A DNA stretch of 64,000 bases from a virus. This document shows, piece after piece, positions 48,438 through 64,000 of this stretch. Positions within the stretch are counted from its first letter, which is position 1, and each line of letters starts with the position of its first letter. Under the pieces are notes generated by a model, which searched no databases, had not been told where the DNA came from, and saw nothing but the letters and a program-made list of their open reading frames with translations. The stretch spans positions 20,458 through 84,457 of the IMG/VR virus record IMGVR_UViG_3300005253_000186. One strand, given 5' to 3'. The position numbers and the translations under genes are program-made.

Positions 48438-49508
48438 GTGTCAAAATTCGACGCGATAAAATATGCTGAGTGGGCCCAGGATGCGGTCTCGGATTACTTG
48501 GAGAACGGAATGTCTCTGAACGATTCCATCTCCAAGATTGCGAGCGAAAACAGCCTCACGCCCGCGCAGGTCCGCCAAGTGTGCCAGCAGGCAAATGTCG
48601 GCGCCTACGAGCACATCTTCAATCAGTCGGAAGATAAGATCGATGCAGTGTTTGATCTTGCAGACGCGAAAACCATCGCCTCCTCCATCTCTGAAAATGA
48701 GAAGGTCGCAAACGACAATCGTTCGCACTCCGACTATTTCCTTGAGCCGCCAAGGCCGAAACTCAACATCGACATTAACGCGGAGTTCGGCGTAGAGCAG
48801 ATCTCCAACGAGCATGAAGTTGCTGCGCACGTTAATGATCTCGAACAGTTCATCGAGAATGCCAAACTTGCTTGCGATGAGATCCGCGCAAAGCAGCATG
48901 ATAACCAGATGGCCATGGTCGATACGAGACGCTCATTGCAGCACGAGGTTGAGCAGGCGATCCTCGTCTCGGACAATCCAGACCGAATGGGCATGATTCG
49001 CAAAGTGGCTCACGCTGTAGGCCTGGGGGTTGAAGAGGCCAGCCAGGAAGTCGCATTCAGCGAGATCGCGAAGATCACAGAGACCCTGGTCAAGAAAGGC
49101 GTGTTTGGCGCCCTGGCCCAATTCCAGGCCGAACAAGAAGGAACCGCGCACATCCGCACGAAGATCGCAGAGTTCTCTAAGCAGGCAGAGGCGGTTCAGT
49201 CCGATCTGATCTCGGACACGCAATTGACCGGATCCGAAGGATCACTGGCAAAGGTCAAAGTCGTCAACGGGAATCATCCAATCCTCGTCAGTATAAATCA
49301 ACTTGTCGACCAGGTCTCTGAGGAAGATCGTCTTAAGAGGGGACTGCTTCTTCTCGAAGACAAGGCGAGCTATGCGATCCGGCGGATCAACGACCTGAAC
49401 ACGTCTGCCCTGACAGATAAGTACGTCCAGCAGGAAACAATGGGCAAGCAGCCGGATATTAAGCCAAACCCAGATCCGGCTCTGCGCAGGTTTGCGAATG
49501 CAGGATGA
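48438..49508 (+). CDS. virion-block protein, helical
   Basis: 356 residues from a GTG after CGGAGGACTCTAGG. Largely helical with coiled-coil parts. First gene of the plus-strand block; position before the prohead protease suggests a head or scaffold role. No motif recognised. Confidence 0.78.
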   Translation: MSKFDAIKYAEWAQDAVSDYLENGMSLNDSISKIASENSLTPAQVRQVCQQANVGAYEHIFNQSEDKIDAVFDLADAKTIASSISENEKVANDNRSHSDYFLEPPRPKLNIDINAEFGVEQISNEHEVAAHVNDLEQFIENAKLACDEIRAKQHDNQMAMVDTRRSLQHEVEQAILVSDNPDRMGMIRKVAHAVGLGVEEASQEVAFSEIAKITETLVKKGVFGALAQFQAEQEGTAHIRTKIAEFSKQAEAVQSDLISDTQLTGSEGSLAKVKVVNGNHPILVSINQLVDQVSEEDRLKRGLLLLEDKASYAIRRINDLNTSALTDKYVQQETMGKQPDIKPNPDPALRRFANAG

Positions 49509-49797
49509 AGGGGTCAATGTGCTCATACGCTGCTTCATCGGCGAAGGGTCCGGTGACGACCTCGAAAAGGTCGCAGTCGTTGGCTCTTTGTTCAAGTTCA
49601 TTGGAGGCAAGGCGCTCAAGTCTGGCGGCAAACTGCTGGGCTGGTCGGTAAAGAATCCAGGGAAGGCTGCCACGGGCGGCCTCTTCATGATTCCGATGGC
49701 GGGAGCGGCTTACAGCAAGGGCAGGAGCGCGGCAATAAGGCCGGCGGGATACAATCCGAGCGCCGCATATTATCTGCCTCAGTCGAGAATGGTGTAA
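49492..49797 (+). CDS. small virion-block protein
   Basis: 101 residues (TTG or ATG start; either is possible). Contains DLEKVAVVGS near residue 24, the recurrent [LIVE]-x-K-[LIVT]-A site, followed by a Gly/Ala-rich hydrophobic stretch. Probably virion-associated. Confidence 0.65.
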   Translation: MRMQDEGVNVLIRCFIGEGSGDDLEKVAVVGSLFKFIGGKALKSGGKLLGWSVKNPGKAATGGLFMIPMAGAAYSKGRSAAIRPAGYNPSAAYYLPQSRMV

Positions 49798-50024
49798 TGA
49801 ACTGGAGCCAGAGCTCATTTCGAATACAGAAATCTCCTCGGGAGATGCAGGCTGAAGCAGAAAAATATCTGCGCCGCCACCGGAACTTCGTTCCTCCGAA
49901 GATCGATTTTGGTTCCCTAGAGGCAGGCCCGGAGCCCGTGAAGATGCCTGAATTTCAGGAAGATCGTCCTTCGCACGCCCCCATTCTGCCGGAGAGCAAA
50001 GAATGCCACTCCCAGAAGAAGTAA
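49797..50024 (+). CDS. small virion-block protein
   Basis: 75 residues starting in a TAATGA overlap. Basic and proline-rich. Unknown. Confidence 0.65.
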   Translation: MNWSQSSFRIQKSPREMQAEAEKYLRRHRNFVPPKIDFGSLEAGPEPVKMPEFQEDRPSHAPILPESKECHSQKK

Positions 50025-50797
50025 TCGCACTCAGGGACTCTGGAGTGCTGTCGGAAGACGACATGGCGAAGATCGCAGAGATGCGCGCCAATCTCATCGA
50101 GTCTTCTTCCGAGGACATGGGCGTATTCCTAAGCTCGATCGCTGACTCATTAAGATCCGTCTCGTTTTCCCCTGAAGACTTTGAGAAGGCCGCCCTACTT
50201 CTTAATGAAGAAGACGGCGATGAATACGAGAAGCTCGCCAAGGTCGATTGGGTATCCAAGATGGGGACGCTTAGCGGCGCCATGGCAGGGTTTGGCAAAT
50301 TCATCTCGAAGCACAAGAGCAAGATAACCCCGGCGTTCCTGGTTGGAATGGGACTCGCTCTTGGCGGCGGAGAGATCGTGGCGACCAGGGCGCAGGCCAA
50401 GGCGCTGACTTCGTCCTTGGGTCAGATAAAAGAGCAGTATCCAGAACTAAAGAAAGACAAGATGACAGACCAGCATTTTGAGGCCCTGTCAGCTTTCTCG
50501 CCTACCGTGGCCAAGAATCCCGTCGTTGCATCCAGTCTGCTCCTGAAGATGAAGCAGTGGGGATCGATCGATCACAAGACGATCCAGGATCTGATCTCTA
50601 TGGAGAGAGGCTTGCGAGACATGGGTCCTCGCGGCGGCGGCGTCGGAGACCTCTTGCAGTCTGCGGCTGCCGTACAGCAGCTCGTGGCGCCTGGCGAGGG
50701 CATCTTCGGTGGCGGAAGGCCGGCAAAAGCACAGTTCAATATTGGCGACCAGATCAGGATTGAGAACGTCGAGAGTATGAGCGTTCCGGGAGCATGA
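50003..50797 (+). CDS. virion-block protein
   Basis: 264 residues. Acidic helical N-terminus, EKLAKVDWVSK around 76-86 (candidate processing site), then a Gly/Ala hydrophobic segment (AFLVGMGLALGGGEIVATRA) and helical remainder. Possibly an internal head or membrane-interacting protein. Confidence 0.72.
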   Translation: MPLPEEVIALRDSGVLSEDDMAKIAEMRANLIESSSEDMGVFLSSIADSLRSVSFSPEDFEKAALLLNEEDGDEYEKLAKVDWVSKMGTLSGAMAGFGKFISKHKSKITPAFLVGMGLALGGGEIVATRAQAKALTSSLGQIKEQYPELKKDKMTDQHFEALSAFSPTVAKNPVVASSLLLKMKQWGSIDHKTIQDLISMERGLRDMGPRGGGVGDLLQSAAAVQQLVAPGEGIFGGGRPAKAQFNIGDQIRIENVESMSVPGA

Positions 50798-51141
50798 AGC
50801 TCGCGGTCTACAGAAGTAGATCGATGGGAACTGCTGACGTAGTTGGTAACGTCGTGGTGGACAAAGAAGGGGTTAAGATAACATCGGACACCAAGGAGCT
50901 CCTGAAGATAATCAGGATTTCTCTGAAGTCTCCGGCCAAGGTCAAGAGGATAAGAGGGAGATCGGCGACGAAACGAAAGCCCAGGGATGTGGCTGAGCAC
51001 GTTTCCAATTCTCTAAGACTCAGAATCTCAAGTCCTTACTGGATTGGTCCCAGGTTCATGGAGTTGGAACAACCCAAGTACGTGGAAGTGGTAGGACCAG
51101 CGGAACTAGAATATGCCGTCAATCCTATCGAAGTTGGCTAA
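50794..51141 (+). CDS. hypothetical virion-block protein
   Basis: 115 residues; beta-rich start then a basic middle (KVKRIRGRSATKRKPRD). Overlaps both neighbours. Confidence 0.7.
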   Translation: MKLAVYRSRSMGTADVVGNVVVDKEGVKITSDTKELLKIIRISLKSPAKVKRIRGRSATKRKPRDVAEHVSNSLRLRISSPYWIGPRFMELEQPKYVEVVGPAELEYAVNPIEVG

Positions 51142-51787
51142 CTATGACGAGTTCGACACGGCGGCTGGCGGTGGAACGAAGACGTACTGGAGAGGCTTTG
51201 AAAAGATCGTGCCGGCAGGAAAAGACGACATGGTCGGCAATCCAGACGGTCTCGGAGGCAACCGCACCAGGCCGCTGCCAGGAAAGTTGCAGAAAGACTC
51301 GTTCAAGAAGAAGGGCAAGAAGACAGAGTACTCGATGAAGAAGGTGGCCATCAAATTCTCGGCAGGTACGGTCGCCGGTCCGAAGAACACGATCAAGCAG
51401 ATGGGGAAAGTCACGTCTGGGTTCCCCATGAGCAAGATCTTCAAGACGACGCAGACGAAGCCAATTTCGGGAAGCGCACAACAGATGGTCAAAACTTCTG
51501 GAGACAATCAGATGGACTCATTTCTCATCAAGGGGTTTGCCGACGAGCTTCAGAAAGAAGCTGGAATCGGCCGCATGATCAAAGGTGTCGGGAAGTTGTG
51601 GAAACGAGTCGCGAAACCCATCGCTGGCCCAGGACTCACCGGGGCAAAGACCCGGAGAGAGCTGGCCGGCGAAGCGATTAAGGGCACCGTCGGCGCAACC
51701 AAGCAGATCATCAAGAAACATCCAGGAAAAGCTGGCCTGGCCGCTGGCGCCGGTGCTGGGTACATGCTGACGGGCAACAAAGAGTAG
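51113..51787 (+). CDS. basic virion-block protein
   Basis: 224 residues. N-terminus MPSILSKLANYDEF carries the K-L-A site; a second site is LQKEAG at ~150. Lys/Gly-rich, C-terminal Gly/Ala-rich segment (AGLAAGAGAGYMLTG). Confidence 0.72.
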   Translation: MPSILSKLANYDEFDTAAGGGTKTYWRGFEKIVPAGKDDMVGNPDGLGGNRTRPLPGKLQKDSFKKKGKKTEYSMKKVAIKFSAGTVAGPKNTIKQMGKVTSGFPMSKIFKTTQTKPISGSAQQMVKTSGDNQMDSFLIKGFADELQKEAGIGRMIKGVGKLWKRVAKPIAGPGLTGAKTRRELAGEAIKGTVGATKQIIKKHPGKAGLAAGAGAGYMLTGNKE

Positions 51788-51790
51788 AGA

Positions 51791-53788
51791 ATGTCACTCA
51801 CTAAATATATCCAGATCGACAGCCATCTTCCGGACGGAACTCCGGCGATCGAGCCGTTGCATTCGAGTCGTCTCATCAAGACGGCCTCGGTGACGAACTC
51901 GTTGATAAAGCAGGCTGCCGACGCTCTTCCCCAACGGGAAGATGGAATTTGGGTGCTTCTCAACGCCCTGGGCGCAGGCGAGTACTGGGGCAGCAATTCT
52001 AATGGCGACTATTTCCCTGAGGAATCGCTCAAGTATGCCTGTGACCTGTCGTATGATTGCCCCAAAGTTTACGACTACGGATTCAAGACCTTTGAGAAAT
52101 ATGCCTTCCCATATCGCCACCACGTCAACAAGGATCCCCGGAAGAGCGTCGGGGAGCGGGTGAAGCTGGCGGTCTGGAACGAAAACATGAAGCGGGTGGA
52201 GCTGATCCACTTCCTCCGCCGCTCATCCGAATTCGACGACTTTGGCGACATTATCAAGGTTGGCGCCCCGGATCTCGTCGAGCAGATTGAGAATGGCGAA
52301 ATCTGTTCGGTTAGCATGGGCTGCAAAGTTCCGTTCGACGTATGCAGCGTCTGCGGGAACCAGGCCAAAAACATTGCATCGTATTGCGATCATCTCAAAT
52401 ATGCGATGAACCAGGTCCTCGACAACGGCATTAAAGTTGCCGCGCACAATACGAGGCCCCGGTTCTTCGACATATCGTATGTCGAGAAAGGAGCCGAGAA
52501 GACGGCCAAGGTGCTCAAGAAGCTCGCTGCGTGTAAGGAGGAGGCTCAGCGACTGGGCAACCGGACTGTTATCTGGGTTGCAGAAGGCATCACTAGGGCA
52601 GAATCGAATCAGCAGGATTACTCTCTTCCTTCAGCTTTTTATGCGGAGCTCGTGAAGTCTGCCCAGCGCAAGAAAGAAGCGCAGGAAGAGCCGAAGAAGG
52701 CGGAAGAGAAGGCTGGAACGATCTCCAAAGTAGTGCCTTCTAACGTCGGGGCGGAGAGCGCTAATGGGCTCGCCGCCATCAACAAGGAAGTGGGCGCTCC
52801 GTTACTCAAAGCTATTGAGCCGGACATGCCCGAAGCTGTGATGAAGGTTCTGTCTCGCAGCCCACTTGGGGATGTATGCTCAACGATGACTGCCATGGGC
52901 ATGGCTCTCAAGCCGCACGAGATGCGACGAATCGTCATCATGAAGATCAAGGGCGGCAAGAGTCCTGATCAAATCGGGACCCCAGAGATCTCGGTTAATC
53001 GGGTTCGCCCCTCTCTTGCACGTCTACTGCATTCCCAGTTGGAGAAAAGATCAAGCCTGAGGGAGCCGATGCGCCGCCGTGTCCTGGATCTTCTGGCCAT
53101 GTCGCCAGATCAGATCATGGATAAAATCGCCGCAAACGATGAGGCCGCAAATCAAGAAGCTCTCATGCTTCAGGAATCTTCTCTGCTGGAGAAAGCAATC
53201 CCGCTGACGGCGTTGGCCGCGGCATTGTTCGCCCTCTACCGGAAGGGTGTAAAGGGAGCGAAAGTCCCGAAGTTCATTGAGAGTGCCTTTGCTAATCACC
53301 CAGAACTCCCGGCAGCAGTCGTGGGAGCGGGTATTGGTGGAGCATTTGGTCCTCTCGGCCGGATGATGGTCCGGAGTCTCGGCCAGGAAAAAACGGCAGG
53401 GAGGGCTCGCGAAGCCGCCCTGGTCGGCGGAGCGCTGTTGGCCCCTTATCTTTACTCTGGACACATTCAGGCGAAAGCCCTGAGAGGTGAACGGGTAACG
53501 AGGGGAGAGGTTGCTGCGGCCCGTAGTCCTGGGAAGATCGGACTGACTGCCGCTGGCTTGGTTGCCTACCGTAAACGTCTCGGTTCAAAGGCAAAACAGC
53601 TTGCGAAGGGACTGTTCAAGAAAGCTGAATCCAACTCCGGGTTGGATAACTTGTTCGAGAAGAGATCAAGCGCGCCGGTTCCAATTGAGGATTTCCTTCG
53701 ATATGGTTCCGACCCCGAGTTGGTCGATCTGGCGATCGCCGAGGGACTGCGCAAGGTTTCTGCTCGGTTGGAAACACTTGTAAGCTAA
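51791..53788 (+). CDS. prohead protease (S78-like) with zinc module and long C-terminal region
   Basis: 665 residues. Blocks match capsid-maturation proteases of the herpesvirus-assemblin/HK97 type: HHVNKDPRKSVGERV (His110/111, as in NHDPSRPIGRV) and ICSVSMGCKV (Ser173/175, as in SGLSIGF). EYWGSNSNGDYFP precedes. A zinc module follows (C185, C188, C199, H201). Residues ~270-665 may be scaffold; this part holds many K-[TILV]-A sites (EKTAKVLKKLAA, KTAG, KKAES), so the protein may process itself. It should cleave capsid and internal proteins during head maturation. Confidence 0.82.
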   Translation: MSLTKYIQIDSHLPDGTPAIEPLHSSRLIKTASVTNSLIKQAADALPQREDGIWVLLNALGAGEYWGSNSNGDYFPEESLKYACDLSYDCPKVYDYGFKTFEKYAFPYRHHVNKDPRKSVGERVKLAVWNENMKRVELIHFLRRSSEFDDFGDIIKVGAPDLVEQIENGEICSVSMGCKVPFDVCSVCGNQAKNIASYCDHLKYAMNQVLDNGIKVAAHNTRPRFFDISYVEKGAEKTAKVLKKLAACKEEAQRLGNRTVIWVAEGITRAESNQQDYSLPSAFYAELVKSAQRKKEAQEEPKKAEEKAGTISKVVPSNVGAESANGLAAINKEVGAPLLKAIEPDMPEAVMKVLSRSPLGDVCSTMTAMGMALKPHEMRRIVIMKIKGGKSPDQIGTPEISVNRVRPSLARLLHSQLEKRSSLREPMRRRVLDLLAMSPDQIMDKIAANDEAANQEALMLQESSLLEKAIPLTALAAALFALYRKGVKGAKVPKFIESAFANHPELPAAVVGAGIGGAFGPLGRMMVRSLGQEKTAGRAREAALVGGALLAPYLYSGHIQAKALRGERVTRGEVAAARSPGKIGLTAAGLVAYRKRLGSKAKQLAKGLFKKAESNSGLDNLFEKRSSAPVPIEDFLRYGSDPELVDLAIAEGLRKVSARLETLVS

Positions 53789-53809
53789 ACATTGTAAAGG
53801 AGAAGTCAG

Positions 53810-54445
53810 ATGCGCATGGACGAAATTCTTGCCCAATTGATGGGGGAGGATGAGACCGAAAAAAATGCCTCTGAGCAGGCCACTTCAGAAGACAGCGTGA
53901 TCGCAACGATTGCGTCGGCGCTGAGCGATGAAGAGGTTGCAGAGGTAGAGAAGATCGCGTCCAGTCTTGAGCAGGAGAAGCTTGCTGAAGATTACGTGAC
54001 GCTCGGTCGATTCCTGGCCCGTGGATTCCACGACGAGCTTGGCAAGATCGCTGGCAGCGAGAAGAATGCTGCGGGCGGAGCCGTCACGGGATTCGGTGGA
54101 ACAGCCGGCGGCCCTGATGGCATGAAGGGTATGACCGGAACGGCCTACACGTCTCCCGGCGCCCCGGGCAACAAAACGATCGCCGCGGGTGGCGACACGT
54201 CTCCGGGTGCAAATAGCGCCGAGCCTGGCCCCAAGGCACCGAATGCAGAAGGCCAGAGTTACACGACGCCACAGGACGGCTCGAACGTCCTCGCCAAGAT
54301 CAAGGCGACGGTCGATCAGGTTCACCAGCCAATGAGCGCCACCAAAAAGCAGGATGCAATGGGCATGCTGCACAAGATCGTGGATGCGGCGAAGCAACAG
54401 AAGCGCAAGCAGCATCCAGCAGAGGTCCCAAGCAACCTGACGTAG
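53810..54445 (+). CDS. scaffold-like/internal head protein
   Basis: 211 residues after AAAGGAGAAGTCAG. Acidic helical N-terminus with VEKIASS, EKLAEDY and LGKIAGSEKN sites, a Gly/Pro/Ser/Thr-rich middle and a helical basic end. Position between protease and capsid protein and the number of candidate cleavage sites suggest a scaffold or internal protein. Confidence 0.7.
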   Translation: MRMDEILAQLMGEDETEKNASEQATSEDSVIATIASALSDEEVAEVEKIASSLEQEKLAEDYVTLGRFLARGFHDELGKIAGSEKNAAGGAVTGFGGTAGGPDGMKGMTGTAYTSPGAPGNKTIAAGGDTSPGANSAEPGPKAPNAEGQSYTTPQDGSNVLAKIKATVDQVHQPMSATKKQDAMGMLHKIVDAAKQQKRKQHPAEVPSNLT

Positions 54446-54481
54446 TCGAGATTCAATCAGGTTCCAAATAGGAGACTAAAG

Positions 54482-54895
54482 ATGAGCCTGCAAGACATTT
54501 ACAACGCTACCTACGCGGGTGGCGAAAGCGCAAGCGGAGAGTCCGAGAAGACCGCCGACGACAAAGCGGTTGAAGAGGCTCTTGCCAAGTTCGACGAAGA
54601 CCAGTGCGCCAAGTTGGCGGCGACCGCCACCTTGATGGACACCTTCGGCATGGAGTTTAAGTCTGGCGCCGAGAAAATCGCTGCTGCCTGCAACCTCATC
54701 GATCACCTCTCAGAGGACGATGGTGAGACGGCAACGTCTGAGAAGACGGCAAGCGACGACGAGGCCCAGGCGAAAGAACTGGACGCCGCTGGCCGCATCA
54801 TGGCCCAGGGGTTCATGGCCGAGCTCGACGATGCAGAGAAGACTGCGTCTGAAAAGCCGCCTGCCGGTTCGTTCGCGACGATCTTAGGCTCGTAG
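54482..54895 (+). CDS. acidic internal/scaffold-like protein
   Basis: 137 residues after AGGAGACTAAAG. Very acidic; five K-[TI]-A sites (SEKTADD, AEKIAAA, SEKTASD, AEKTASE and CAKLAAT). Composition like a degradable scaffold core. Confidence 0.72.
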   Translation: MSLQDIYNATYAGGESASGESEKTADDKAVEEALAKFDEDQCAKLAATATLMDTFGMEFKSGAEKIAAACNLIDHLSEDDGETATSEKTASDDEAQAKELDAAGRIMAQGFMAELDDAEKTASEKPPAGSFATILGS

Positions 54896-54907
54896 TTCCT
54901 GGAATCC

Positions 54908-54942: not shown

Positions 54943-54954
54943 GAGGAAGAAAAG

Positions 54955-55239
54955 ATGGCTATAGCGAAACTCAAAAAAGCGATTCCCTACGCAGCAGCAG
55001 TCCTCGGCGGCGCAGGGCTTGGCGGCGCCCTCGGTTACGGAAAGGGCAAGAAGAGTGGAACTAAGAGGGGACGTGAACAGGGCGCCATTGCTGCTGCTCG
55101 CCATTTTCGTAGAGGGGCGAACATCAGAAATAGGGCCTTGCAGGTATTTTCGGTTCGGAACCAGCAACTCTCCAGGCAGAACCGAGCGCTGAGGAACCGA
55201 ATCGGTGAGTTGGCCTCGGAAAGGAAACGGGCGACATGA
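54955..55239 (+). CDS. basic Gly/Ala-rich virion-block protein
   Basis: 94 residues: AAAVLGGAGLGGALGYGKGKK hydrophobic-glycine segment, then Arg-rich helix. Resembles other small basic proteins in the block. Confidence 0.7.
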   Translation: MAIAKLKKAIPYAAAVLGGAGLGGALGYGKGKKSGTKRGREQGAIAAARHFRRGANIRNRALQVFSVRNQQLSRQNRALRNRIGELASERKRAT

Positions 55240-55631
55240 TCAGCAAAGTCCCAACAGTTGAGCAACTTGTCCAGGCCGCAATCGGCGATGCTGACTCGTT
55301 CGAGGTTGGCGAACCGCCAGTCGAGAAAATCGCGTCTACCAAAGCGGCGGGGAACGATGACGGCCTCGATCTGTTTGAGAAGACGGCCAGAGAACTTGAG
55401 TCCTGGGCCGATCAGGCTGAGTCCAATCAAGAAGAATTCGAGAAAGTAGCTTCTGCGAAAAAGGAGCAGGACACACACGACGCCATCTTGAAGTTGGCGA
55501 TGGCGAGCACAGTGCTGCACACTCTCCACGAATTGGATGAACATGGCCAGCTAGGTCGGCTCGTGGAGAAAAATGAATGTTCGAATCAGCTAACTGGCCG
55601 TGAGCGCGTACTGCAACTTCTGGGGCAGTAG
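55236..55631 (+). CDS. acidic virion-block protein
   Basis: 131 residues with three candidate processing sites (VEKIASTK, FEKTAREL, FEKVASAK). Helical. Confidence 0.7.
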   Translation: MISKVPTVEQLVQAAIGDADSFEVGEPPVEKIASTKAAGNDDGLDLFEKTARELESWADQAESNQEEFEKVASAKKEQDTHDAILKLAMASTVLHTLHELDEHGQLGRLVEKNECSNQLTGRERVLQLLGQ

Positions 55632-55653
55632 CCGGCTAAGGAGATCGATTACG

Positions 55654-56037
55654 ATGAGCGATAAAAATAACATGGGTCCCGAGCTCGCCAGAAAGGTCTC
55701 AACTTGTTTGCGGAAATACGCTGATCTCCAGTCGGAGAACAAGCGTCTTACAGACAACCAGGAAAAGCTCGCTGGTGAGCGAGACAACGCAAGAAAGGAG
55801 GTAGAGGCGTGCATAGCGGTCCTTGATGGGATTCGGGACGGCGTCATTGACCCGGAGGACTATGAGGAGAAGGTGGCGGAACTCAAAGACCTGCCGGGCT
55901 CCTCCGTTAAGACGGCGTCTCCAACTGGACAGACGCCCGTGGTACATGCTGGAATCGGCAAGGTCCATACCAAGTTGGCTTCGAGCGAAGCCGGGGAACT
56001 GGACCCGCTTTCAGCGTTTCTACTTGGTGCTGAATAG
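55654..56037 (+). CDS. coiled-coil virion-block protein
   Basis: 127 residues from the ATG after AAGGAGATCGATTACG. Coiled coil (about 20-60), then a linker with VKTASPT and TKLASSE sites. Possibly scaffold. Confidence 0.7.
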   Translation: MSDKNNMGPELARKVSTCLRKYADLQSENKRLTDNQEKLAGERDNARKEVEACIAVLDGIRDGVIDPEDYEEKVAELKDLPGSSVKTASPTGQTPVVHAGIGKVHTKLASSEAGELDPLSAFLLGAE

Positions 56038-56071: not shown

Positions 56072-56524
56072 ATGGCAAGCAGCGGAGCTCTCTTCTTGAA
56101 GACGAAGCTAGAGGGTCTCGTCCGCCTGAACCTGCCGGTCGCTGCCGGCGAAAGCATTGTTGAGGGTGAGTGGTTTACCCGCAATGCAGGTGGTGAGGCG
56201 GTCAAGACGACTGGTCCTGTGAACATCGCGTATGTGACGTTTGCTGGAACGGATCGTCCGGACTCTCGCAACACGCAGGACGACCCGATTGAGGGTCTCG
56301 GCTCTCCAGTCGAGATCTCGACCGGTGGCGTCACGGGCCTCCAGGGCGACTATCGGGCCGACGTAAGCAACGTTGGCTTCGATGACGGCCAATCCTACAC
56401 CCAGGACGATGCTCTGATGGTGACGAGCGGCAAGCTCACGCCACAGACTTCAACCAACCCGACCAAGGCTTTTGTGGAAATTGCCGTCGGGGCAGACAAC
56501 CGACTTCACTTCACCACGGCTTAG
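56072..56524 (+). CDS. head decoration-like protein
   Basis: 150 residues immediately upstream of the capsid gene. Beta-rich, with VAAGESIVEGEWFTR and a Gly/Asp-rich middle, the usual pattern of capsid decoration/stabilisation proteins. No K-[LIVT]-A site, consistent with an exterior protein that escapes processing. Confidence 0.72.
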   Translation: MASSGALFLKTKLEGLVRLNLPVAAGESIVEGEWFTRNAGGEAVKTTGPVNIAYVTFAGTDRPDSRNTQDDPIEGLGSPVEISTGGVTGLQGDYRADVSNVGFDDGQSYTQDDALMVTSGKLTPQTSTNPTKAFVEIAVGADNRLHFTTA

Positions 56525-56559
56525 GTCGAGGCTGAAACCAGTCAGGAAGGAGAACAGTA

Positions 56560-57468
56560 ATGTCAGATGGTGCAAATGCGATGGCTGCGAACGCCTCGAC
56601 GATTAACGCACTGTTCGGTGAAGCACTGAACGATCCCAGTGAGATCGTCAAGCTTGCCGCAGCAGGTGGTGCGTTCATTCGTGCCCGGCTCCGTGAGTTG
56701 TCGTTCCTGCGGAAGATCATCCCGCCTGTGATGGTCACCAAGCAAGACACTCAGCGCTCGACGCTGCATGACGGTCTGGTCAAGATCGTGGACATTGAGC
56801 CTGAGTCGAAGGCCATGCCCATCACGTGGCGCGGCGAGCCGGATGCCAGGTATGTTACTGGTCCTCGGTATCAAGTGAACTTCTTCAGTATTTCCAGTGA
56901 GAAGTTCGAGAAGACGGAGCAGGAGCTCCTGTCCTACGAGTCTCCGATCACGAAGATCATTGAGGAGAACTCGGTCAAGGACATTCAAGAGGAAGAGGAT
57001 CGCACCTTCCTCGCGCACGTCGATGCCGCAATTGGCATCTCGGGCAACAGCTCCGGCGTGACCGATACGCGGGTTACCCGGAACGCGCTCACCCAGCTCA
57101 TCAAGATCATCACGGGCAAAAAGCTCAAGGTTGATCTGTTCCTGATGACGCAGGAAGACTTCGCGGACGTGCTGGCCTTCGAGGCCACGGACGTTGGTGA
57201 TCGTGTCGCGTCCGAGATCACGGTCGACGGCTACAAGTACAATACCCTCCTGGGGTACAAGCTTGTGACCACGATCAAGAACGACATTGTTCTTCCCAAG
57301 AACCTCTACGGGTTCGCGGCGCCGCAGTTCCTCGGGAACTTCTTCATTTTGAATCAGACGAAGTTCTGGATCAACAAGCGTGCGAATCTGGTCGAGTGGC
57401 AGAGCTGGGAAGACATTGCTGTTGGCATCGCCAACGTCAATGGCGTGGCAAGGATCACTTTGTCGTAG
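56560..57468 (+). CDS. major capsid protein
   Basis: 302 residues after AAGGAGAACAGTA. HK97-like composition: helical N-terminal ~35 residues, then RELSFLRKIIPPVMVTKQDT, PITWRGEPDARYVTGPRYQV, a central VDLFLMTQEDFADVLAF helix, and NVNGVARITLS end. At residues 28-33 it has EIVKLA followed by AAGG, which fits the proposed prohead-protease site and would remove a delta-like N-terminus. Forms the icosahedral shell. Confidence 0.88.
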   Translation: MSDGANAMAANASTINALFGEALNDPSEIVKLAAAGGAFIRARLRELSFLRKIIPPVMVTKQDTQRSTLHDGLVKIVDIEPESKAMPITWRGEPDARYVTGPRYQVNFFSISSEKFEKTEQELLSYESPITKIIEENSVKDIQEEEDRTFLAHVDAAIGISGNSSGVTDTRVTRNALTQLIKIITGKKLKVDLFLMTQEDFADVLAFEATDVGDRVASEITVDGYKYNTLLGYKLVTTIKNDIVLPKNLYGFAAPQFLGNFFILNQTKFWINKRANLVEWQSWEDIAVGIANVNGVARITLS

Positions 57469-57626
57469 TTCACCACGGTGCCACGCGGTCCCCCACGCGG
57501 ATAGGCGCCGGGATGGTGGGGAGGGGAGTAAAATCCTTCCCCACCTTCCGAACTACACGCGACTTCTGGCAATCGGGGTCTCCCGACGGTCGCTTGTAGT
57601 CCACCACGGGAAGGAGGCGAAGAAGA
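57469..57626 (+). other. 158-bp leader/intergenic region after the capsid gene
   Basis: No gene. Contains hairpin GGTGGGGA/TTCCCCACC (57513-57544) and a second CCACGCGG repeat pair. Lacks a U-run. May limit read-through or stabilise capsid mRNA. Confidence 0.5.
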
Positions 57627-58316
57627 ATGGCGATTAGCGGAAGCAGGGTCAGGGTCACGAATATTTCCGATGAGCATATCGGACTATCCCGTCCATCATC
57701 AGCCTTCCTGAGAAGGAAGGGGTATAAGCCAGCCAATTTGACCTGGGCAACATTCCCGGCGGAATGGGTTGATGATGCGATGCGCGCCCTTGAAGTCCAG
57801 GGCAGGATCTTAATTCACAACCTAGATGAGAAGGGAAGGGTCGTCCGCGAGGAGAAGCCTCAGGCAGACCCGGAAGGGGACCAGGACAAGGCCCCGGAAG
57901 ACACCGTCGTTGCACTCAAGGAAAGCGAAGACGACGAGCCCGGCGACGACAATCCTGATGGGTCCGAGGTTATTGTCGAAGACGAGGCTCCGAAAGTTTC
58001 CGACAGCGCGGTCGTCAATCTAACGCCTGAGCCGAAAGATGCGACCGTCCCCACGGTATCGTCCGGTCTTGACGGCGATCCGGTGAGCGAGAATATCCCA
58101 GACGGGTCGGACGGCGACCTCCCTCCCGCAGATACAGAAAAAAGTAGCCCTGAAGACGGCGATGACGAAGCGGTAAAATACACAAAGAGCGCCCTCAGGA
58201 AGATGAACCTGCGCGGACTCCGAGAAGTCCTGGAGGACCGCGAGATCAACATCGACAGCACACGCAAGGACCCGATCATCGAGGCCATTCTGGATCACCA
58301 GAACCTGGGAGCATAG
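57627..58316 (+). CDS. acidic protein with C-terminal SAP-like motif
   Basis: 229 residues. Structured N-terminus to ~75, a long Asp/Glu/Pro/Ser linker, and a C-terminal helix-extended-helix (SALRKMNLRGLREVLEDREI ... DPIIEAILDHQN) like SAP/Rho-N domains found near capsid genes in many phages. Probably a head-completion or DNA-contacting protein. Confidence 0.72.
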   Translation: MAISGSRVRVTNISDEHIGLSRPSSAFLRRKGYKPANLTWATFPAEWVDDAMRALEVQGRILIHNLDEKGRVVREEKPQADPEGDQDKAPEDTVVALKESEDDEPGDDNPDGSEVIVEDEAPKVSDSAVVNLTPEPKDATVPTVSSGLDGDPVSENIPDGSDGDLPPADTEKSSPEDGDDEAVKYTKSALRKMNLRGLREVLEDREINIDSTRKDPIIEAILDHQNLGA

Positions 58317-58320
58317 GTAA

Positions 58321-58836
58321 ATGCCTATCCCGCAGGAAACAGTCGGGATCAAGATCGGAGATCCCGGTAAGAACGAGAAGAAGGGTGCCGTCCTGGTCAG
58401 GAGACTCCGGGCGTACATTCGAGATGATCCGGTCATCAATGAGTTAATCGAAGGCAAGGAATCCGGGGACGGACAACTCAAAGAGGCCATCCTGGATGCG
58501 ATCGAGGATTGGAACGACACGCAGCCGCCTCTGGCGCGGATCAATATCCTGACCCATCCTTCGGATCGGCTCCTGATCCGCGGCGCCGCTATCGAGGTCC
58601 TGCACTCGGCAGGAATCTTGCAGTCCAGGAACCGGCTGGACTACAATGATGGCGGCATCGTTGTGCGGGACAAGGACAAGGCCCCGGACTACCAGGCCTG
58701 GATCAGCCATCTGGTCCGGGACTACGAGACCAAGAAGATCAACCTGAAGAAGAGCCTGAACATTTCGCTCGGATTCGGGTCAGTCCCGTCTGAGTACAGC
58801 GGGAATAACAGGAACGACGACGACAATTTCTTCTAG
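58321..58836 (+). CDS. head-completion-like protein
   Basis: 171 residues. Helical start, LARINILTHPSDRLLIRGAA and LDYNDGGIVVRDKDKAPDYQ. The latter is the usual wording of head-proximal structural proteins that lie just after the capsid gene. Role inferred from position. Confidence 0.68.
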   Translation: MPIPQETVGIKIGDPGKNEKKGAVLVRRLRAYIRDDPVINELIEGKESGDGQLKEAILDAIEDWNDTQPPLARINILTHPSDRLLIRGAAIEVLHSAGILQSRNRLDYNDGGIVVRDKDKAPDYQAWISHLVRDYETKKINLKKSLNISLGFGSVPSEYSGNNRNDDDNFF

Positions 58837-58845
58837 GAGAGATCC

Positions 58846-59115
58846 ATGAATCTGATTGAGAAACTCGCAGCGAAAAATGGTCCAGATAAGAAACTCAGCA
58901 CATACATCCGCGGCGCGCACACCGGTGTGAGTGGCGCTTATGGAGCGGCAGGCGGAGGTTTTATCGGGCATTTACTCGGCAAAGGCGCGAAAACCAAGGC
59001 CGGTCGAATCGCGGCGACAGCGGCTGGAGTCCTGGGCGGCGGTGCTGCTGGAGTAGGTCTGGCAAAATCTCACCGCCGCATTGGGCGAGCTCTATACGAG
59101 AAGCCAGGTAAGTAA
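58846..59115 (+). CDS. IEKLA-leader protein 1
   Basis: 89 residues starting MNLIEKLAAKNG, then a Gly/Ala-rich hydrophobic body and a basic end. First of seven proteins with the M-x(1-4)-IEK-[LIV]-A start. Preceded by AGGAGAGATCC. Confidence 0.75.
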   Translation: MNLIEKLAAKNGPDKKLSTYIRGAHTGVSGAYGAAGGGFIGHLLGKGAKTKAGRIAATAAGVLGGGAAGVGLAKSHRRIGRALYEKPGK

Positions 59116-59118
59116 CAA

Positions 59119-59916
59119 ATGGTTGCGACGGGACTACTAGAATTCGAACAGATCACGGTCAAGACGGTATCGCTTGACTTCCTGCTGGTTGAGTGGGTCG
59201 TTAAGCCGACGAACCGTCCGATCGACGACTTCGATTTCGTGGTCCTCAGAAGCCAATCTCCCAAGGGCCCATTCTCTGTGGTGTCGGAGGAGCTGGAGTC
59301 TATTTTCGCCTTTGCAGATGTTCATGCATCTCAGAAGGCAAGATGGCGCCAATGGCACTACAAAGTCCGGGTTATCGAACGGGACACGGAGAAGTTTTCC
59401 GAGTCCGAGATTGTTACAAACAGCGAAAAGCCGGACCGGATCGCTCTTGCGATCATCCGGAGAAACAATCTGCTTCTGAGGGTCAAAAACGGGATCGACG
59501 CCTTCGCCTTCATTGAGCGGACATTTGGGCAGAAGTGCACCTGCATGGACCCGGTGAAGTCAAGGAAGCGCCGCAGTGACTGTCCAATCTGTCTGGGAAC
59601 AACATTCGTCGGCGGGTTCCTCGACCCGATTCAGATCAAGATCAATGTTAGCCCGTCCCCGAAAGTCAGCCAGTTCGCAAACATGGGAGAGCTCCAGCCG
59701 AATCAGACGGCCGCATGGATGAGCAACTTCCCGGAGATCAAGCAGCGCGACGTGATCGTAGAGGCCGTCGCGAACGGAACCCGGTGGCGCGTGACCAGGA
59801 TGACCCCGACGAGGAAGAACAGGGCCCTGGTCCACCAGAACCTACTCCTGACCGAAATCAACCGGTCGGACATTGAATGGAAACTTGAGCTGCCAACTCT
59901 GGAGAAAGCATCATGA
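59119..59916 (+). CDS. virion protein with fibronectin-like and zinc modules
   Basis: 265 residues. Residues 15-95 look like a fibronectin-III domain (FLLVEWVVKPTNRPIDDFDF ... WRQWHYKVRVIE), followed by a helical segment, a zinc knuckle (CTCMD and CPICLG), and a beta-rich C-terminus ending TLEKAS. Similar proteins occur at head-tail junctions of myoviruses. Not certain. Confidence 0.7.
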   Translation: MVATGLLEFEQITVKTVSLDFLLVEWVVKPTNRPIDDFDFVVLRSQSPKGPFSVVSEELESIFAFADVHASQKARWRQWHYKVRVIERDTEKFSESEIVTNSEKPDRIALAIIRRNNLLLRVKNGIDAFAFIERTFGQKCTCMDPVKSRKRRSDCPICLGTTFVGGFLDPIQIKINVSPSPKVSQFANMGELQPNQTAAWMSNFPEIKQRDVIVEAVANGTRWRVTRMTPTRKNRALVHQNLLLTEINRSDIEWKLELPTLEKAS

Positions 59917-60062
59917 AACTTATCGAAAAGATTGCCGCGGGACCCTATATGCACAAGGGCAAAGGCAAGGGAAAGTCGATGATCAAAGCCTACATGGGCA
60001 AGAAGATGGGCAAAGACTACAAGCACAAGATGAAAATGGGCAAGGGCGGGATGACCTACTAA
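59913..60062 (+). CDS. IEKIA-leader protein 2, 49 residues
   Basis: ATG in an ATGA overlap. MKLIEKIAAGPYMHKGKGKG, then a Lys/Gly/Met-rich tail ending GGMTY. If the leader is cut at A, a basic 40-residue peptide remains, suited to neutralising DNA inside the capsid. Confidence 0.72.
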   Translation: MKLIEKIAAGPYMHKGKGKGKSMIKAYMGKKMGKDYKHKMKMGKGGMTY

Positions 60063-60397
60063 TGAAAACGATCGAGAAACTCGCCGTCCGCGGTGGACCG
60101 AAGCATCTCTTCGGGATGTGGAAGCGCGTCTTCAAGCCCAAGTTTAGAGTCCAGAGGACCACGGCTGCGACCGGAAAGCCGTTAGAGTCGTACATGGCAA
60201 CAGGAGTGACCGAGTCCAAAAGAAGAGCGGCCCAGAAGGCCCTTAAGGCTACCGCAAGACAAGCCAAAAGAGGAGCGAAAGCGGTTGGCAAGGCATTCCC
60301 CGCTGAAGCCATACCGGCAGCAGCCATCGGTGCCGCTGGACTTGGCGCTGGGTATGCACTCAGCAGGCGTCGCGGGAAGAAAAAAGAGCAGAAGTAG
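60062..60397 (+). CDS. IEKLA-leader protein 3
   Basis: 111 residues: MKTIEKLAVRGGPKH, strongly basic middle (RRAAQKALKATARQAKRGAK) and an AIGAAGLGAGYAL segment. Start is within the previous stop (TAATG). Confidence 0.75.
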   Translation: MKTIEKLAVRGGPKHLFGMWKRVFKPKFRVQRTTAATGKPLESYMATGVTESKRRAAQKALKATARQAKRGAKAVGKAFPAEAIPAAAIGAAGLGAGYALSRRRGKKKEQK

Positions 60398-60643
60398 ATG
60401 ATGCTGATCGAGAAGCTCGCTGTAGGCAACCCGCAGGTCCCGAGTAAGAGAGACAAGAAGCAGAGGATTGCGCGGCGCTGGCTCACTCGCGGTGAGGATA
60501 AAGATAAGGACGTTGCCCCGGACGGACGAAGCAAGAGGCAATTCGAAGGCAAGGGTGGCGGATTCGGCGAGAGCATGGGCGAGAACACTGGCGGAATAAC
60601 ATTTTCCGGCCAGGGCGAAGGATACCGAAGGTCAGTGATGTGA
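60398..60643 (+). CDS. IEKLA-leader protein 4
   Basis: 81 residues: MMLIEKLAVGNPQ, then basic, then Gly-rich. Follows directly on the previous stop. Confidence 0.72.
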   Translation: MMLIEKLAVGNPQVPSKRDKKQRIARRWLTRGEDKDKDVAPDGRSKRQFEGKGGGFGESMGENTGGITFSGQGEGYRRSVM

Positions 60644-61026
60644 GAAAGAAGGCCTTCTACAATGAAGATGCGGCCCCGAAGGCAGACACGAAAAGCGGAT
60701 ACGGGATCTATGATCACTCTGGATTGAATCCAGGGAAAGTCCCCCTTCCGGCGACGAACGAAGAGGCAAGCACGGCATCTGCGGTCGGCAAGAAGAAGCC
60801 CAGAAAGGCGACGGATAAGATGAAAAAAGAAGCCTCTGACGGCCTGTCAAAAGGATTCTCCGAGGAGATGCAGAAGCTTGGCTTCGGAATGATGCGGGGC
60901 GTGGGCACTTCTCCAATGGCGGTACCGCCGGCGATGGGCAAAGGCGGCGTAGTGGCCTCCAAGAGCAAGAAGGGTATGGGTCCGAAGATCAAGATTGTCT
61001 CGTCCAAGTCGAGAAAGACGTACTGA
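60640..61026 (+). CDS. basic virion-block protein, GTG start
   Basis: 128 residues; Lys/Gly/Ser-rich with MKKEASDG and QKLGFGM segments. No IEKLA leader at its N-terminus. Confidence 0.68.
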   Translation: MRKKAFYNEDAAPKADTKSGYGIYDHSGLNPGKVPLPATNEEASTASAVGKKKPRKATDKMKKEASDGLSKGFSEEMQKLGFGMMRGVGTSPMAVPPAMGKGGVVASKSKKGMGPKIKIVSSKSRKTY

Positions 61027-61490
61027 TGATGGTGATTGAGAAGCTAGCCGAAGCCTCGATGCACGCCCAATCATTCCTGGCCCACAACCCAGGGACGGAT
61101 GCGCATGGTCAATACGGCGTTGGCGGAGTTGTTAAAGGGCCGGTCAACGCCGTCATCGGAGAGAGAGGGCCGGAAGTAGTCGTACCGCTCAAGAAGAAGT
61201 TCATGAACAAGAAAGTCAAGGATATGGTACGATACTTCAAGGGCCAGGAACTCAAGAAGCAGGCCGTCAAGAAGAGGATGAAGATCGGAAAGATTGCCAA
61301 GAAGCCTCATCAGCACGGCGGATACGAGGAAAAGAAGGACGGGACACTGGTTCCCAACAGCGACCTTGGCAGCAGGCAAGCAACATCCGATGCAGCTCTA
61401 CATGGATCCCAGATGGGAAGCCTGTTCTCAAGCGGGTGGCTACAGAGCCAATCCGTCAGGAGTGGTGGTCAACCGAATCTTCGAGGGTAA
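61026..61490 (+). CDS. IEKLA-leader protein 5 with tape-measure-like GERGPE motif
   Basis: 154 residues: MMVIEKLAEASMH, then NAVIGERGPEVVVPLKKK at about 40-57, a motif normally found near the C-terminus of tail tape-measure proteins. Basic remainder. Here it stands alone on a small protein. Confidence 0.75.
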   Translation: MMVIEKLAEASMHAQSFLAHNPGTDAHGQYGVGGVVKGPVNAVIGERGPEVVVPLKKKFMNKKVKDMVRYFKGQELKKQAVKKRMKIGKIAKKPHQHGGYEEKKDGTLVPNSDLGSRQATSDAALHGSQMGSLFSSGWLQSQSVRSGGQPNLRG

Positions 61491-61496
61491 AGCAGC

Positions 61497-61856
61497 ATGC
61501 CAACGCTAATCGAGAAGATTGCCCAGTACGGCTCCGTCGAGGTAAAAGCCCGCCGGGCTCGGGCAGTTCGGGAAATCGTACAGGGCGCGACGACCGGGAC
61601 GTTCCTGGGCGGAGTATTCGGAAGGAGCACAAAGGCCGCCCTTATTGGATCGGGACTGGGAGCGCTGTATGGTGCCGCATCCGAGGTGATGACAAGGTCT
61701 GTCGAAGATGAGCAGAAGCGCCAGATTTCCAAATGGCAAGGGCGCTCCGACCCAAAGAGGAGTAGGATAAAGCCGTTCAAAGACGCAGAGTTCGGAAGCT
61801 CTGTTAGGGGGCATGCACGAGCCAAGGCCATGAAGATCATGAGGAGCACGGCATGA
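61497..61856 (+). CDS. IEKIA-leader protein 6
   Basis: 119 residues: MPTLIEKIAQYGSV, then a Gly/Ala hydrophobic segment (TGTFLGGVFGRS ... GSGLGALYGAA) and basic C-terminus. Confidence 0.72.
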   Translation: MPTLIEKIAQYGSVEVKARRARAVREIVQGATTGTFLGGVFGRSTKAALIGSGLGALYGAASEVMTRSVEDEQKRQISKWQGRSDPKRSRIKPFKDAEFGSSVRGHARAKAMKIMRSTA

Positions 61857-62059
61857 GCAGAGAAGATAGACCAGATCGCAAGATGGACATTCGCGAGTAC
61901 AAGGAATACTGCAAGGGCAAGCACGGGGAGAAGTCTGTCAACGATAGCCTCCTGAAGAACATAAACCGGGCGACAGGCGGAAGAACTCTGAGTCGGTCTG
62001 AGTTCGACAAGGTCCATGCGAAGATCAAGATTGGCCAAGAGCTCAAGAAGGAACAGTAG
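61853..62059 (+). CDS. small basic virion-block protein
   Basis: 68 residues, charged, no leader motif. Overlaps the previous gene by 4 bases. Confidence 0.65.
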   Translation: MSREDRPDRKMDIREYKEYCKGKHGEKSVNDSLLKNINRATGGRTLSRSEFDKVHAKIKIGQELKKEQ

Positions 62060-62061
62060 TC

Positions 62062-62406
62062 ATGATGATGATCGAGAAGGTCGCGAAGCTTTCTAAGGAG
62101 GAGCTTGACGAGCTCAATGAGTATGACCGGAAGAACGTCCCGCACTTCAGAAGAATGGCTAGTAGGCCGCAAGCAGCCCTCGGGTCTCAGCGTGCCCAGG
62201 CAGCTCTTGGGGCAATGAGCGGCGGAACACTTGCGAATCTCCTCGCTCGCGGCAGCAAGTACACAAGAAAGTACAAGGGACTGGCAACCCTGGCCGGAGT
62301 GGTTGGAGGAGCCGCGGCGGCGGGCGGAGCCGGGATGATGGCCCAAAAAAGCAAGAGGGAAGCGGCCAAGATGTTTCCCTATGAGGGAAGGAAGGCGAAG
62401 AAGTAG
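62062..62406 (+). CDS. IEKVA-leader protein 7
   Basis: 114 residues: MMMIEKVAKLSKEEL, acidic segment, then Gly/Ala-rich hydrophobic and basic end, like proteins 1, 3 and 6. Confidence 0.72.
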   Translation: MMMIEKVAKLSKEELDELNEYDRKNVPHFRRMASRPQAALGSQRAQAALGAMSGGTLANLLARGSKYTRKYKGLATLAGVVGGAAAAGGAGMMAQKSKREAAKMFPYEGRKAKK

Positions 62407-62880
62407 ATGCTCCGGATCTTGGACATAAACCGCAATGATGGCGAGCCAGTTCCCTTCTGGGAGATGAGCCGCGTCAAAGAGGGCGTAATCTCCTCGATCA
62501 AGGAGGTTCTGTACTCCGGCGTCATGAAGCACCCGACCGGGATCCTGGCCAATAGCATCCAGGGGTATGTGACCGGGCAGTCAATTTACATCATCTCCGA
62601 GCAGCCCCACGCCGACGCGCAGGACAAGGGGATGGCGAGCCACGTGATGTGGGCCTTGCTTGGGAAGACGATCCCGATCAGGATCTTTGAAGGAGGACAG
62701 ACGCGAGTGATCTTCAGGAAGGCTACGCTTAAGAGCTTCTTGAATGGTGGATGGGTCCATCCCGGGATCACTGCCAAGGAGTTTGTTTCCCGCGGAGTCG
62801 GTGCGGCCATGACGGGAATGTCCGGAATGAACTGGACGCTCAGGTCGCCCATGGGAGTTCCTAGGACGGCGGCGGCATGA
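62407..62880 (+). CDS. neck/tail-completion-like protein
   Basis: 157 residues. Mid-part GILANSIQGYVTGQSIYIIS-EQPHAD and GWVHPGITAKEFV resembles HK97-gp10-type neck/tail-completion proteins, which clamp the head-tail junction. Position supports this. Confidence 0.6.
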   Translation: MLRILDINRNDGEPVPFWEMSRVKEGVISSIKEVLYSGVMKHPTGILANSIQGYVTGQSIYIISEQPHADAQDKGMASHVMWALLGKTIPIRIFEGGQTRVIFRKATLKSFLNGGWVHPGITAKEFVSRGVGAAMTGMSGMNWTLRSPMGVPRTAAA

Positions 62881-63248
62881 ACGAGAACGTGATCATAGCG
62901 TTCAGGGACGAGATAGAGAAGACTGCTCAGGTTGGGGGGATCCGGGCCGCTGGTAGGCTCTGGAAGAGCGTCTTCACCGGAGCGAAAGGCCAGAAGGCTG
63001 GCCTGGGAAAAAGGATCGGGAGCGCCATCAAGGGAACAGCGGGGGCTGCGAGGCGCGACCTGAGGACGACTGGCCTCGGCAGAACAGGCAAGATTGCTCT
63101 GACCGGCGCAGCGCTGGTTGGGGCCCCAGCTTTGGCGGCAAGCCATCTGGCTGGTAAACAGACCGCGGCCCAGAAAGCTTACACGAGAAGGTTGACCGGA
63201 AGTTACAGGCCAGGCGCCGGCATGTTGGTGCCGCCGAGATCATACTAG
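62877..63248 (+). CDS. basic virion-block protein with IEKTA site
   Basis: 123 residues: DEIEKTAQVGGIRAAG at 11-26, then Lys/Arg/Gly-rich and AALVGAPALAASHLAG. Confidence 0.7.
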   Translation: MNENVIIAFRDEIEKTAQVGGIRAAGRLWKSVFTGAKGQKAGLGKRIGSAIKGTAGAARRDLRTTGLGRTGKIALTGAALVGAPALAASHLAGKQTAAQKAYTRRLTGSYRPGAGMLVPPRSY

Positions 63249-63257
63249 GGGAACAAG

Positions 63258-63635
63258 ATGAACGTAATCCCGTACACGAAACCACTGGACAGGGACCTTC
63301 TTCTGAAGAAGTTGGCGGCGATCCAGGGGGGACCGGCCCATACGCCGGCAAACCCTCCCCAGGAAGACAAAGTACAGCCGGTTGGTGCGCTGGAGAACAC
63401 ATTCCCGCACAACACGCAGGTCCCAGCAGGATTCGGAGGGAAAGGCGAGACAAACATGCGCGGCGAGGGCAACCAACTCGCTGCGATCCCGAAGGATATT
63501 ACCGCAAAGGTCGGCCCACGGTCGGTCAAGGACACGAACAATCCGACGATCAAAAAGGTCGCCAGCGCAGGCATCGAAGATGCGCTCTTGGCCGGATTCG
63601 TCGATGAGTTCAACAAGATTGCGAGGAAAGAATAA
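63258..63635 (+). CDS. virion-block protein with KLA/KVA/KIA sites
   Basis: 125 residues. LLLKKLAAIQGG at ~15-26, IKKVASAG and FNKIARKE near the C-terminus; Pro/Gly-rich middle. Candidate processed virion protein. Confidence 0.7.
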   Translation: MNVIPYTKPLDRDLLLKKLAAIQGGPAHTPANPPQEDKVQPVGALENTFPHNTQVPAGFGGKGETNMRGEGNQLAAIPKDITAKVGPRSVKDTNNPTIKKVASAGIEDALLAGFVDEFNKIARKE

Positions 63636-64000
63636 TGGCCGTTGCAATCGTTTACTCATCGTTCAGCCTGCACGAAGCAGGGAAATCTGCCAGTGATGCT
63701 TCCCGTGATTCTGTAGTCGCAGACAATCGTGGGAGCACCAATACTGGTGTGAAGACCTTCACGGACCCCAACAGGGACTTCGACGCCGAGGGCATCGACA
63801 GCACCTTCCGGCTTGAGATCCTGGAAGGGGTGGATGCAGGGGATGTTGGCGTCGTCTCCGTGTCAACAGACACGATCACGACGGATGCGGGCAGCAACTT
63901 CACTGGATCAGACGGTGTTCTCTACCGGCTCTACAAGCCGCCGAGCGCCACCGAGATCCTCACCGATCAGACTAAGCGTGGGCGCGGGATTGCTGGATAC
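63635..64000 (+). CDS. virion protein, partial (runs off the window)
   Basis: 122 visible residues from an ATG in a TAATG junction: MAVAIVYSSFSLHEAGKSAS, then a beta-rich Asp/Thr/Gly sequence. Possibly a tail or adhesin-like structural protein. C-terminus outside the window. Confidence 0.65.
   Translation, partial: MAVAIVYSSFSLHEAGKSASDASRDSVVADNRGSTNTGVKTFTDPNRDFDAEGIDSTFRLEILEGVDAGDVGVVSVSTDTITTDAGSNFTGSDGVLYRLYKPPSATEILTDQTKRGRGIAGY

Follow-up and report, generated by a model that had tools for sequence, protein, structure and literature searches.

The head of phage T4 contains an ADP-ribosyltransferase, Alt, whose propeptide is cleaved, and herpesvirus assemblin, for which a common fold with phage prohead proteases has been proposed, cuts Ala-Ser bonds in the scaffold and in itself. 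The T4 prohead protease gp21 has a published specificity of L/I-x-E. Its gene adjoins those of scaffold and capsid, its short degenerate motif is found in scaffold, capsid, protease, and small internal proteins, and N-terminal leaders of about 10 residues mark unrelated small proteins (PMC9026906). The proteases gp245 of phage SPN3US and gp175 of phage phiKZ read a three-residue motif at P3 and P1, cut after A-x-E or S/A-x-E, and belong to systems with multiple propeptide cuts and packaged enzymes (PMC10052503, PMC9026906); gp245 prefers Ser at P1' (PMC10052503). In phage P1, an N-terminal signal within 30 residues of one protein, DarB, sends it into the head (PMC9024508). Here we analyzed a virion/head block of about 30 genes on the plus strand of a 64,000-nucleotide window, from position 48438 to its end. 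The window comprises bases 20458 to 84457 of the 84,457-base IMG/VR virus record IMGVR_UViG_3300005253_000186, and positions below are those of the window. A preliminary description of this DNA had pointed out a recurring [LIVE]-x-K-[LIVT]-A in the block's proteins and proposed that the phage follows T4-like logic with a different motif.

The locus compares well with the T4 system. A head protease gene adjoins scaffold and capsid genes, one short degenerate motif occurs in scaffold, capsid, protease, and small proteins, and short leaders stand at the N termini of unrelated small proteins. The motif differs, with Lys at P3 and a final Ala in place of L/I-x-Glu, or of the A-x-E and S/A-x-E of SPN3US and phiKZ; the protease is not recognized by Pfam, and many more genes bear leaders than in T4. 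The three-residue motif read at P3 and P1, the Ser preference at P1', and the proposed multiple cuts and packaged enzymes are shared with SPN3US and phiKZ. As with DarB, an N-terminal signal would send proteins into the head, but here it is a short tag on many genes. T4-like head maturation and capsid targeting with a Lys-x-Ala specificity is the best reading of the locus and, in our judgment, a probable one; the earlier proposal is supported by motif invariance, by enrichment in relatives, and by virion proteomics of Salmonella phage Arash. The gene at 51791 would encode a prohead protease working like T4 gp21, with a recognition core of Lys (P3), a hydrophobic residue, Thr, or Gln (P2), and Ala (P1), and a preference for Ser at P1'.

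Lys-x-Ala sites in the head block and in relatives

We write K-h-A for sites in which h is L, I, V, M, or T, with K as P3, h as P2, and A as P1. Expectations in the window were obtained by shuffling residues within each protein. In the 30 virion-block proteins, K-[LIVT]-A was observed 48 times, with 10.4 ± 3.3 expected, and EK[LIVT]A 24 times, with 0.6 expected. The permuted motifs [LIVT]KA and KA[LIVT] and the control R[LIVT]A showed no excess in the block, and K-[LIVT]-A showed none in the remainder of the 84-kb record (15 versus 17.4 expected). The longer [LIVE]-x-K-[LIVT]-A has 23 sites in 17 plus-strand proteins of the window, matching the earlier count of at least 17; 16 of them begin inside the range given then (49492 to 64000), and the protein at 48438-49508 begins just upstream of it.

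Such recurrence might come from Lys/Ala-rich paralogues, in which K-x-A would repeat by descent or chance. The small proteins are indeed basic and rich in Gly and Ala, and a few are weakly alike outside the leader (51113 versus 62877, E 3e-7). However, most pairwise matches are limited to the leader, the motif is also present in the unrelated acidic, capsid, and protease proteins, and the effect vanishes in within-protein shuffles and permuted motifs, which rule out a composition artefact as the source of the enrichment. We consider an origin in composition or shared ancestry extremely improbable.

Besides the protease, the block encodes four scaffold-like acidic proteins, one decoration-like protein, and a major capsid protein with the HK97 fold; it also holds a series of small basic proteins, with probable head-tail connector genes among them. 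The acidic proteins had been described as carrying the motif repeatedly, and each has three to five K-h-A sites: three at 53810-54445 (isoelectric point [pI] 4.9), five at 54482-54895 (pI 4.1; three are EKTA), four at 55236-55631 (pI 4.6), and four at 55654-56037 (pI 5.0). At these repeated sites the protease would probably degrade the scaffold. The decoration-like protein (56072-56524) lacks K-[LIVT]-A, as had been said of it. At the upstream edge of the motif-rich block, a 356-amino-acid protein (48438-49508) has five K-h-A sites, and a 264-amino-acid protein (50003-50797) has two.

We collected relatives as 103 IMG/VR loci from capsid and protease scans, 80 more from an alignment of clade-B capsids, and three cultured phages with homologous protease and capsid, Arash, Vibrio phage D69, and Bacillus phage G. 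Genes in the IMG/VR loci were called by a simple longest-open-reading-frame rule; related sequences are non-independent samples, and near-duplicates were dropped by matching ends only. Among 400 X-h-Z classes, K-h-A ranked first by enrichment in nearly all clade-A loci as well as in the phage G head region, and nearly all relatives that we examined retained the enrichment in their head block. When 972 distinct clade-A proteins were pooled, only Lys was enriched at P3 and only Ala at P1, with no enrichment of Arg at P3 or of other residues at P1. Enrichment at P2 was 5.1-fold for T, 4.1-fold for V, 3.8-fold for I, 3.2-fold for L, and 2.9-fold for Q. A profile of 1578 sites reads approximately [DE]-E-[LMF]-E-K-[TVIL]-A|S-A, where the bar is the presumed cut and Ser is preferred at P1'. 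The K-x-A core of the motif first described therefore stands; the preceding [LIVE]-x is just a preference ([LMFI] at -2 and E at -1 relative to K-x-A), and P2 is wider than given, including Q, and Q or E in clade B. In the literature searched, we found no publication that describes the motif for Arash, D69, or phage G.

As a method check, we scanned seven T4 head genes with no prior. I-x-E came first and L-x-E was in the top three, with 55 occurrences of [LI].E versus 28.8 expected. Since the scan recovers the gp21 site, composition-corrected enrichment can read prohead protease specificity from sequence. The head region of mycobacteriophage I3 (L184; Bxz1-type, a distant protease relative) gave no clear motif. 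In Gordonia phage Stormageddon (L185), I-x-E was the top class in the head region, which suggests a T4-like specificity in a distant protease homologue. K-x-A is thus not universal among distant homologues.

Arash and D69, like phage G and the window phage, have K-x-A enriched in their head proteins, but they prefer Q or E at P2. A scan restricted to L, I, V, M, or T in the middle had suggested that both lack the motif; the all-tripeptide scan shows K[EQ]A. In clade B, which comprises Arash, D69, and related contigs and is monophyletic (support 0.998), the capsid site is K-E-A and the protease site mostly K-Q-A or K-A-A. Enrichment at P2 there was 6.1-fold for Q and 2.9-fold for E in 26 loci and 7.9-fold and 4.2-fold in 18 loci. 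Clade C retains T, V, I, and L and adds E.

The main motif peak fell at the head block in six mapped genomes or long contigs, some with smaller secondary peaks. In L174-L183 (the contig of L065), secondary K-h-A peaks at about 88 kb and 104 kb (10 versus 3.3 and 11 versus 3.0) possibly mark further packaged proteins. For Arash, we combined the published virion list from liquid chromatography-tandem mass spectrometry (PMC10585845) with GenBank gene coordinates and assigned the tail set ourselves from annotation and gene position. Nontail virion proteins with at least five unique peptides contain 30 K[QE]A sites versus 10.1 expected. No excess was found in tail, baseplate, and fiber proteins (4 versus 3.9), in weakly detected proteins (4 versus 4.0), or in undetected proteins (7 versus 5.9). 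Of the seven Arash proteins whose first 60 residues include a K[QE]A, six are on the virion list. The coverage values of that list are so odd (e.g., two unique peptides giving 100%) that we read no propeptide loss from them; the 86.64% coverage of the capsid protein, which leaves out 41 of 307 residues, would agree with such a loss and is not evidence for it.

The protease and capsid sites

The protease gene (51791-53788, plus strand) encodes 665 amino acids, with candidate catalytic residues H110/H111 and S175 and a core at about residues 37 to 245. The protein matches phrog_2774, phrog_16951, and phrog_18299 (head maturation protease; E 0.009 for phrog_18299) and the capsid maturation protease of Stormageddon (E 1e-6), and its homologues in cultured phages include phage G gp19 and Arash gp222. 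Given this homology to annotated enzymes and the position of the gene beside scaffold and capsid genes, it is a head maturation protease in the broad sense. K30 and A32 are invariant in 36 homologous proteases (37 to 65% identical to that of the window), together with H110, H111, and S175, and the residue between K30 and A32 varies. In an AlphaFold model (mean predicted local distance difference test score [pLDDT] 79), residues 28 to 32 (pLDDT <50) belong to a linker that joins the pro-region to the core and is modelled as disordered. At K30-T-A32 (51878-51886), the protease would probably release its own core.

In a Foldseek search against 350,542 PDB chains, T4 gp21 (5jbl) took ranks 1 to 3, below significance (E 0.07, template modelling score 0.45). 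Assemblin, which also has no Lys-P3 rule, was at rank 39 and not significant (1at3, E 2.2). A PDB profile search with the protease alignment gave spurious matches only. A search of the window's record with PF03420 (Peptidase_S77) gave no match, but the controls were likewise silent. The deduced motif has Ala as its third residue, and the S77 family has a Glu specificity (L/I-x-E). With neither profile nor specificity in agreement, we do not file the protease in the S77 family, although it probably works like T4's head maturation. Two homologues (L055:3356-6163 and L008:3599-6556) are apparently split by inteins at the conserved G-S/C-N-x-N-G-D, and the long homologues in L016, L037, L041, and L064 may also hold inteins.

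The major capsid protein (56560-57468, plus strand, 302 amino acids) matches phrog_2522 (E 7e-19), has the HK97 fold (Foldseek match 1ohg, E 4e-9, prob 1.0), and is a homologue of phage G gp27 (6WKK). The EIVKLA reported at residues 28 to 33 is correct and contains the proposed propeptide site K31-L-A33 (56650-56658), where the protease probably trims about 33 residues off the protein. Neither K31 nor A33 varies among 28 capsid homologues, and a K-x-[AS] column is present in nearly all of 79 capsid sequences. Together with the protease alignment and the enrichment retained in nearly all relatives, this means that the proposal withstood a test set in the preliminary description, whose refuting outcome would have been relatives with the protease but without the motif. 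The capsid site is the least certain of the proposed cuts.

A predicted helix at the capsid site would also suit a role without cutting, in which K-x-A in amphipathic helices is a docking motif for binding between scaffold and head proteins and the leaders are docking tags only. The motif flanks, rich in E and hydrophobic residues, fit such a role. The motif's invariance in a low-confidence linker of the protease does not, and the Ser preference at P1' and the strict Lys and Ala resemble protease subsites. The method that returns K-x-A here returns a true protease site in T4, and P2 shifts along with residues beside the catalytic serine. T174, A177, T180, and H56 are present in 14 of 14 distinct clade-B proteases, where clades A and C mostly have V, G, V or I, and L. 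The changes V174T, G177A, V180T, and L56H are rare or absent in the clades with hydrophobic P2, and three of the four flank the candidate nucleophile S175. As the shift at P2 occurred once in evolution, its association with the protease changes is a correlation, not a replicated test. Overall, we judge pure docking unlikely.

N-terminal leaders and their cargo

The seven leaders listed in the preliminary description were all found, each at the start of a small plus-strand gene: MNLIEKLA (58846-58869; a basic Gly/Ala-rich protein, 58846-59115), MKLIEKIA (59913-59936; protein 59913-60062), MKTIEKLA (60062-60085; protein 60062-60397), MMLIEKLA (60398-60421; protein 60398-60643), MMVIEKLA (61026-61049; protein 61026-61490, with a tape-measure-type segment), MPTLIEKIA (61497-61523; protein 61497-61856), and MMMIEKVA (62062-62085; protein 62062-62406). 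An eighth, MPSILSKLA (51113-51139), begins the basic protein at 51113-51787. Two more plus-strand proteins have sites at residues 15 and 18, one basic with a longer leader (62877-63248, EIEKTA ending at residue 17) and one with KKLA near residue 18, KKVAS near residue 100, and NKIA at the C terminus (63258-63635). The Lys of K[LIVT]A is at residue 6 or 7 in eight block proteins; tested for Lys at residues 5 to 8, the eight compare with a shuffle mean of 0.27 and a maximum of 3 in 2000 shuffles. Leader codons vary synonymously from gene to gene, so selection acts on the peptide and conservation is at the protein level, and on this ground we reject a DNA-level or translation-signal origin. The leader protein at 61026-61490 contains GGVVKGPVNAVIGERGPEVVVPL, like a tape-measure C terminus (phrog_1535, E 7e-4), and has a close homologue in L006.

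As in T4-type capsid targeting, a short N-terminal leader is shared by otherwise unrelated proteins and ends in the protease motif. A lineage-specific K-x-A leader would bring small basic proteins rich in Gly and Ala into the prohead, and enzymes too in relatives; the protease would then remove the leader, and the cargo would be ejected along with the DNA. The leaders are stereotyped by lineage: LIEK[LIV]A in the window, NKYLEKIA in another clade, and MKRLIKK[AS] in phage G, which differs from the window phage in this respect. In L006, the nearest relative, seven proteins with IEK[LIV]A leaders are all encoded downstream of the capsid gene, as in the window. In clade B1, 68 of 74 distinct occurrences of the leader M(S)N[KI]YLEK[IV]A lie 3 to 5 residues after a Met. 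Their P2 is I or V, whereas elsewhere in that clade it is Q or E, and this argues that a function besides cutting maintains part of the leader. This pattern matches the T4 IPIII leader, whose targeting residues are separable from its processing residues (PMC9026906).

Leaders stereotyped beyond K-x-A, with K-[IV]-A kept where the clade's other sites prefer Q or E, would suit docking. They would also suit a division of roles, in which K-x-A is cut in scaffold, protease, and capsid and the N-terminal leaders stay on as targeting or membrane-contact tags. NKYLEKIA, LIEKLA, and MKRLIKKS are conserved past the cut motif, and clade-B leaders depart from the clade's P2 preference. However, the leaders still end in K-x-A (in phage G mostly K-x-[AS]), the T4 precedent is cleaved (PMC9026906), and one leader copy stands between fused domains that cutting would separate. 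We hold this division of roles to be a minority possibility, if a less remote one than docking throughout. In the fused protein (L280:10982-12913, minus strand), a LigD_N 3'-phosphoesterase domain and an SNF2 helicase meet at a leader-like NVYLEKIA; a cut there would release LigD_N from the SNF2-type helicase.

Phage G has 25 proteins whose first 16 residues include RL..K.[AS], as against a shuffle mean of 0.5 (maximum 3) and five in all other windows. The leader proteins are spread over its 497 kb. Five phage G proteins are of an HGT[ST]-type, ADP-ribosyltransferase-like kind (record coordinates 35181, 178671, 245985, 401788, and 402412), and four of the five start with an MKRLIKK[AS]-type leader. 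Pfam PARP matches two of these below its curated cut-off, and a clade-B leader protein also has a subthreshold PARP match. One phage G leader protein is nucleoside deoxyribosyltransferase-like. Such ADP-ribosyltransferase-like cargo in relatives would closely parallel T4 Alt, though the assignments are weak. The predicted cargo comprises basic proteins rich in glycine, proteins resembling ADP-ribosyltransferases, and perhaps a helicase.

We lean slightly toward a broader view, in which many genes in a family of large-genome phages carry a lineage-specific N-terminal tag of two parts, one for targeting and the other a K-x-A cut site. The tag would mark head-loaded, host-delivered proteins, and protease specificity and cut sites would drift together. 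If so, sequence would suffice to list ejected effectors (ADP-ribosyltransferase-like proteins, a helicase, membrane proteins with glycine zippers). The T4-like reading in itself offers a rule, based on sequence only, for predicting head proteins, probably host delivered, in a wide group of uncultured phages. It also adds a head protease with a different specificity, Lys-x-Ala rather than x-Glu, together with a natural specificity shift, and the short proposed capsid-targeting tags are candidates for directing proteins into phage heads. In phage G, some 25 tagged proteins are predicted in the virion, including most of its ADP-ribosyltransferase-like ones.

Counterevidence and other features of the record

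We infer cleavage, a cut after Ala, leader targeting of cargo, and cargo ejection, and several observations weigh against these proposals. No cleavage product has been observed, and the scaffold-like Gp223 of Arash is still detected in virions (PMC10585845). The capsid site lies within a confidently predicted helix (residues 26 to 47), so a structural constraint could explain the invariance of K31 and A33, and phage G has A-L-A there in its capsid protein, without the Lys. The fold match of the protease to gp21 falls short of significance, and a Pfam scan of the window protease found 0 families, with the PF03420 profile not matched. The protease does carry copies of the motif, as first described (K30-T-A32, K125, and K215), but those at K125 and K215 are within the fold and unlikely to be cut. 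Besides the P2 shift being one event, clade-B leaders keep K-[IV]-A while other clade-B sites prefer Q or E, so the leader may be kept more for targeting than for cutting.

A host scan of genome contigs gave three metagenome-assembled matches, including Deltaproteobacteria and Acidobacteriota, too weak for naming a host. The minus strand of the window carries 32 transfer RNA genes at 9010-37067 and a full phage transfer-messenger RNA at 33712-34071 with the tag ADNGYRMAA.

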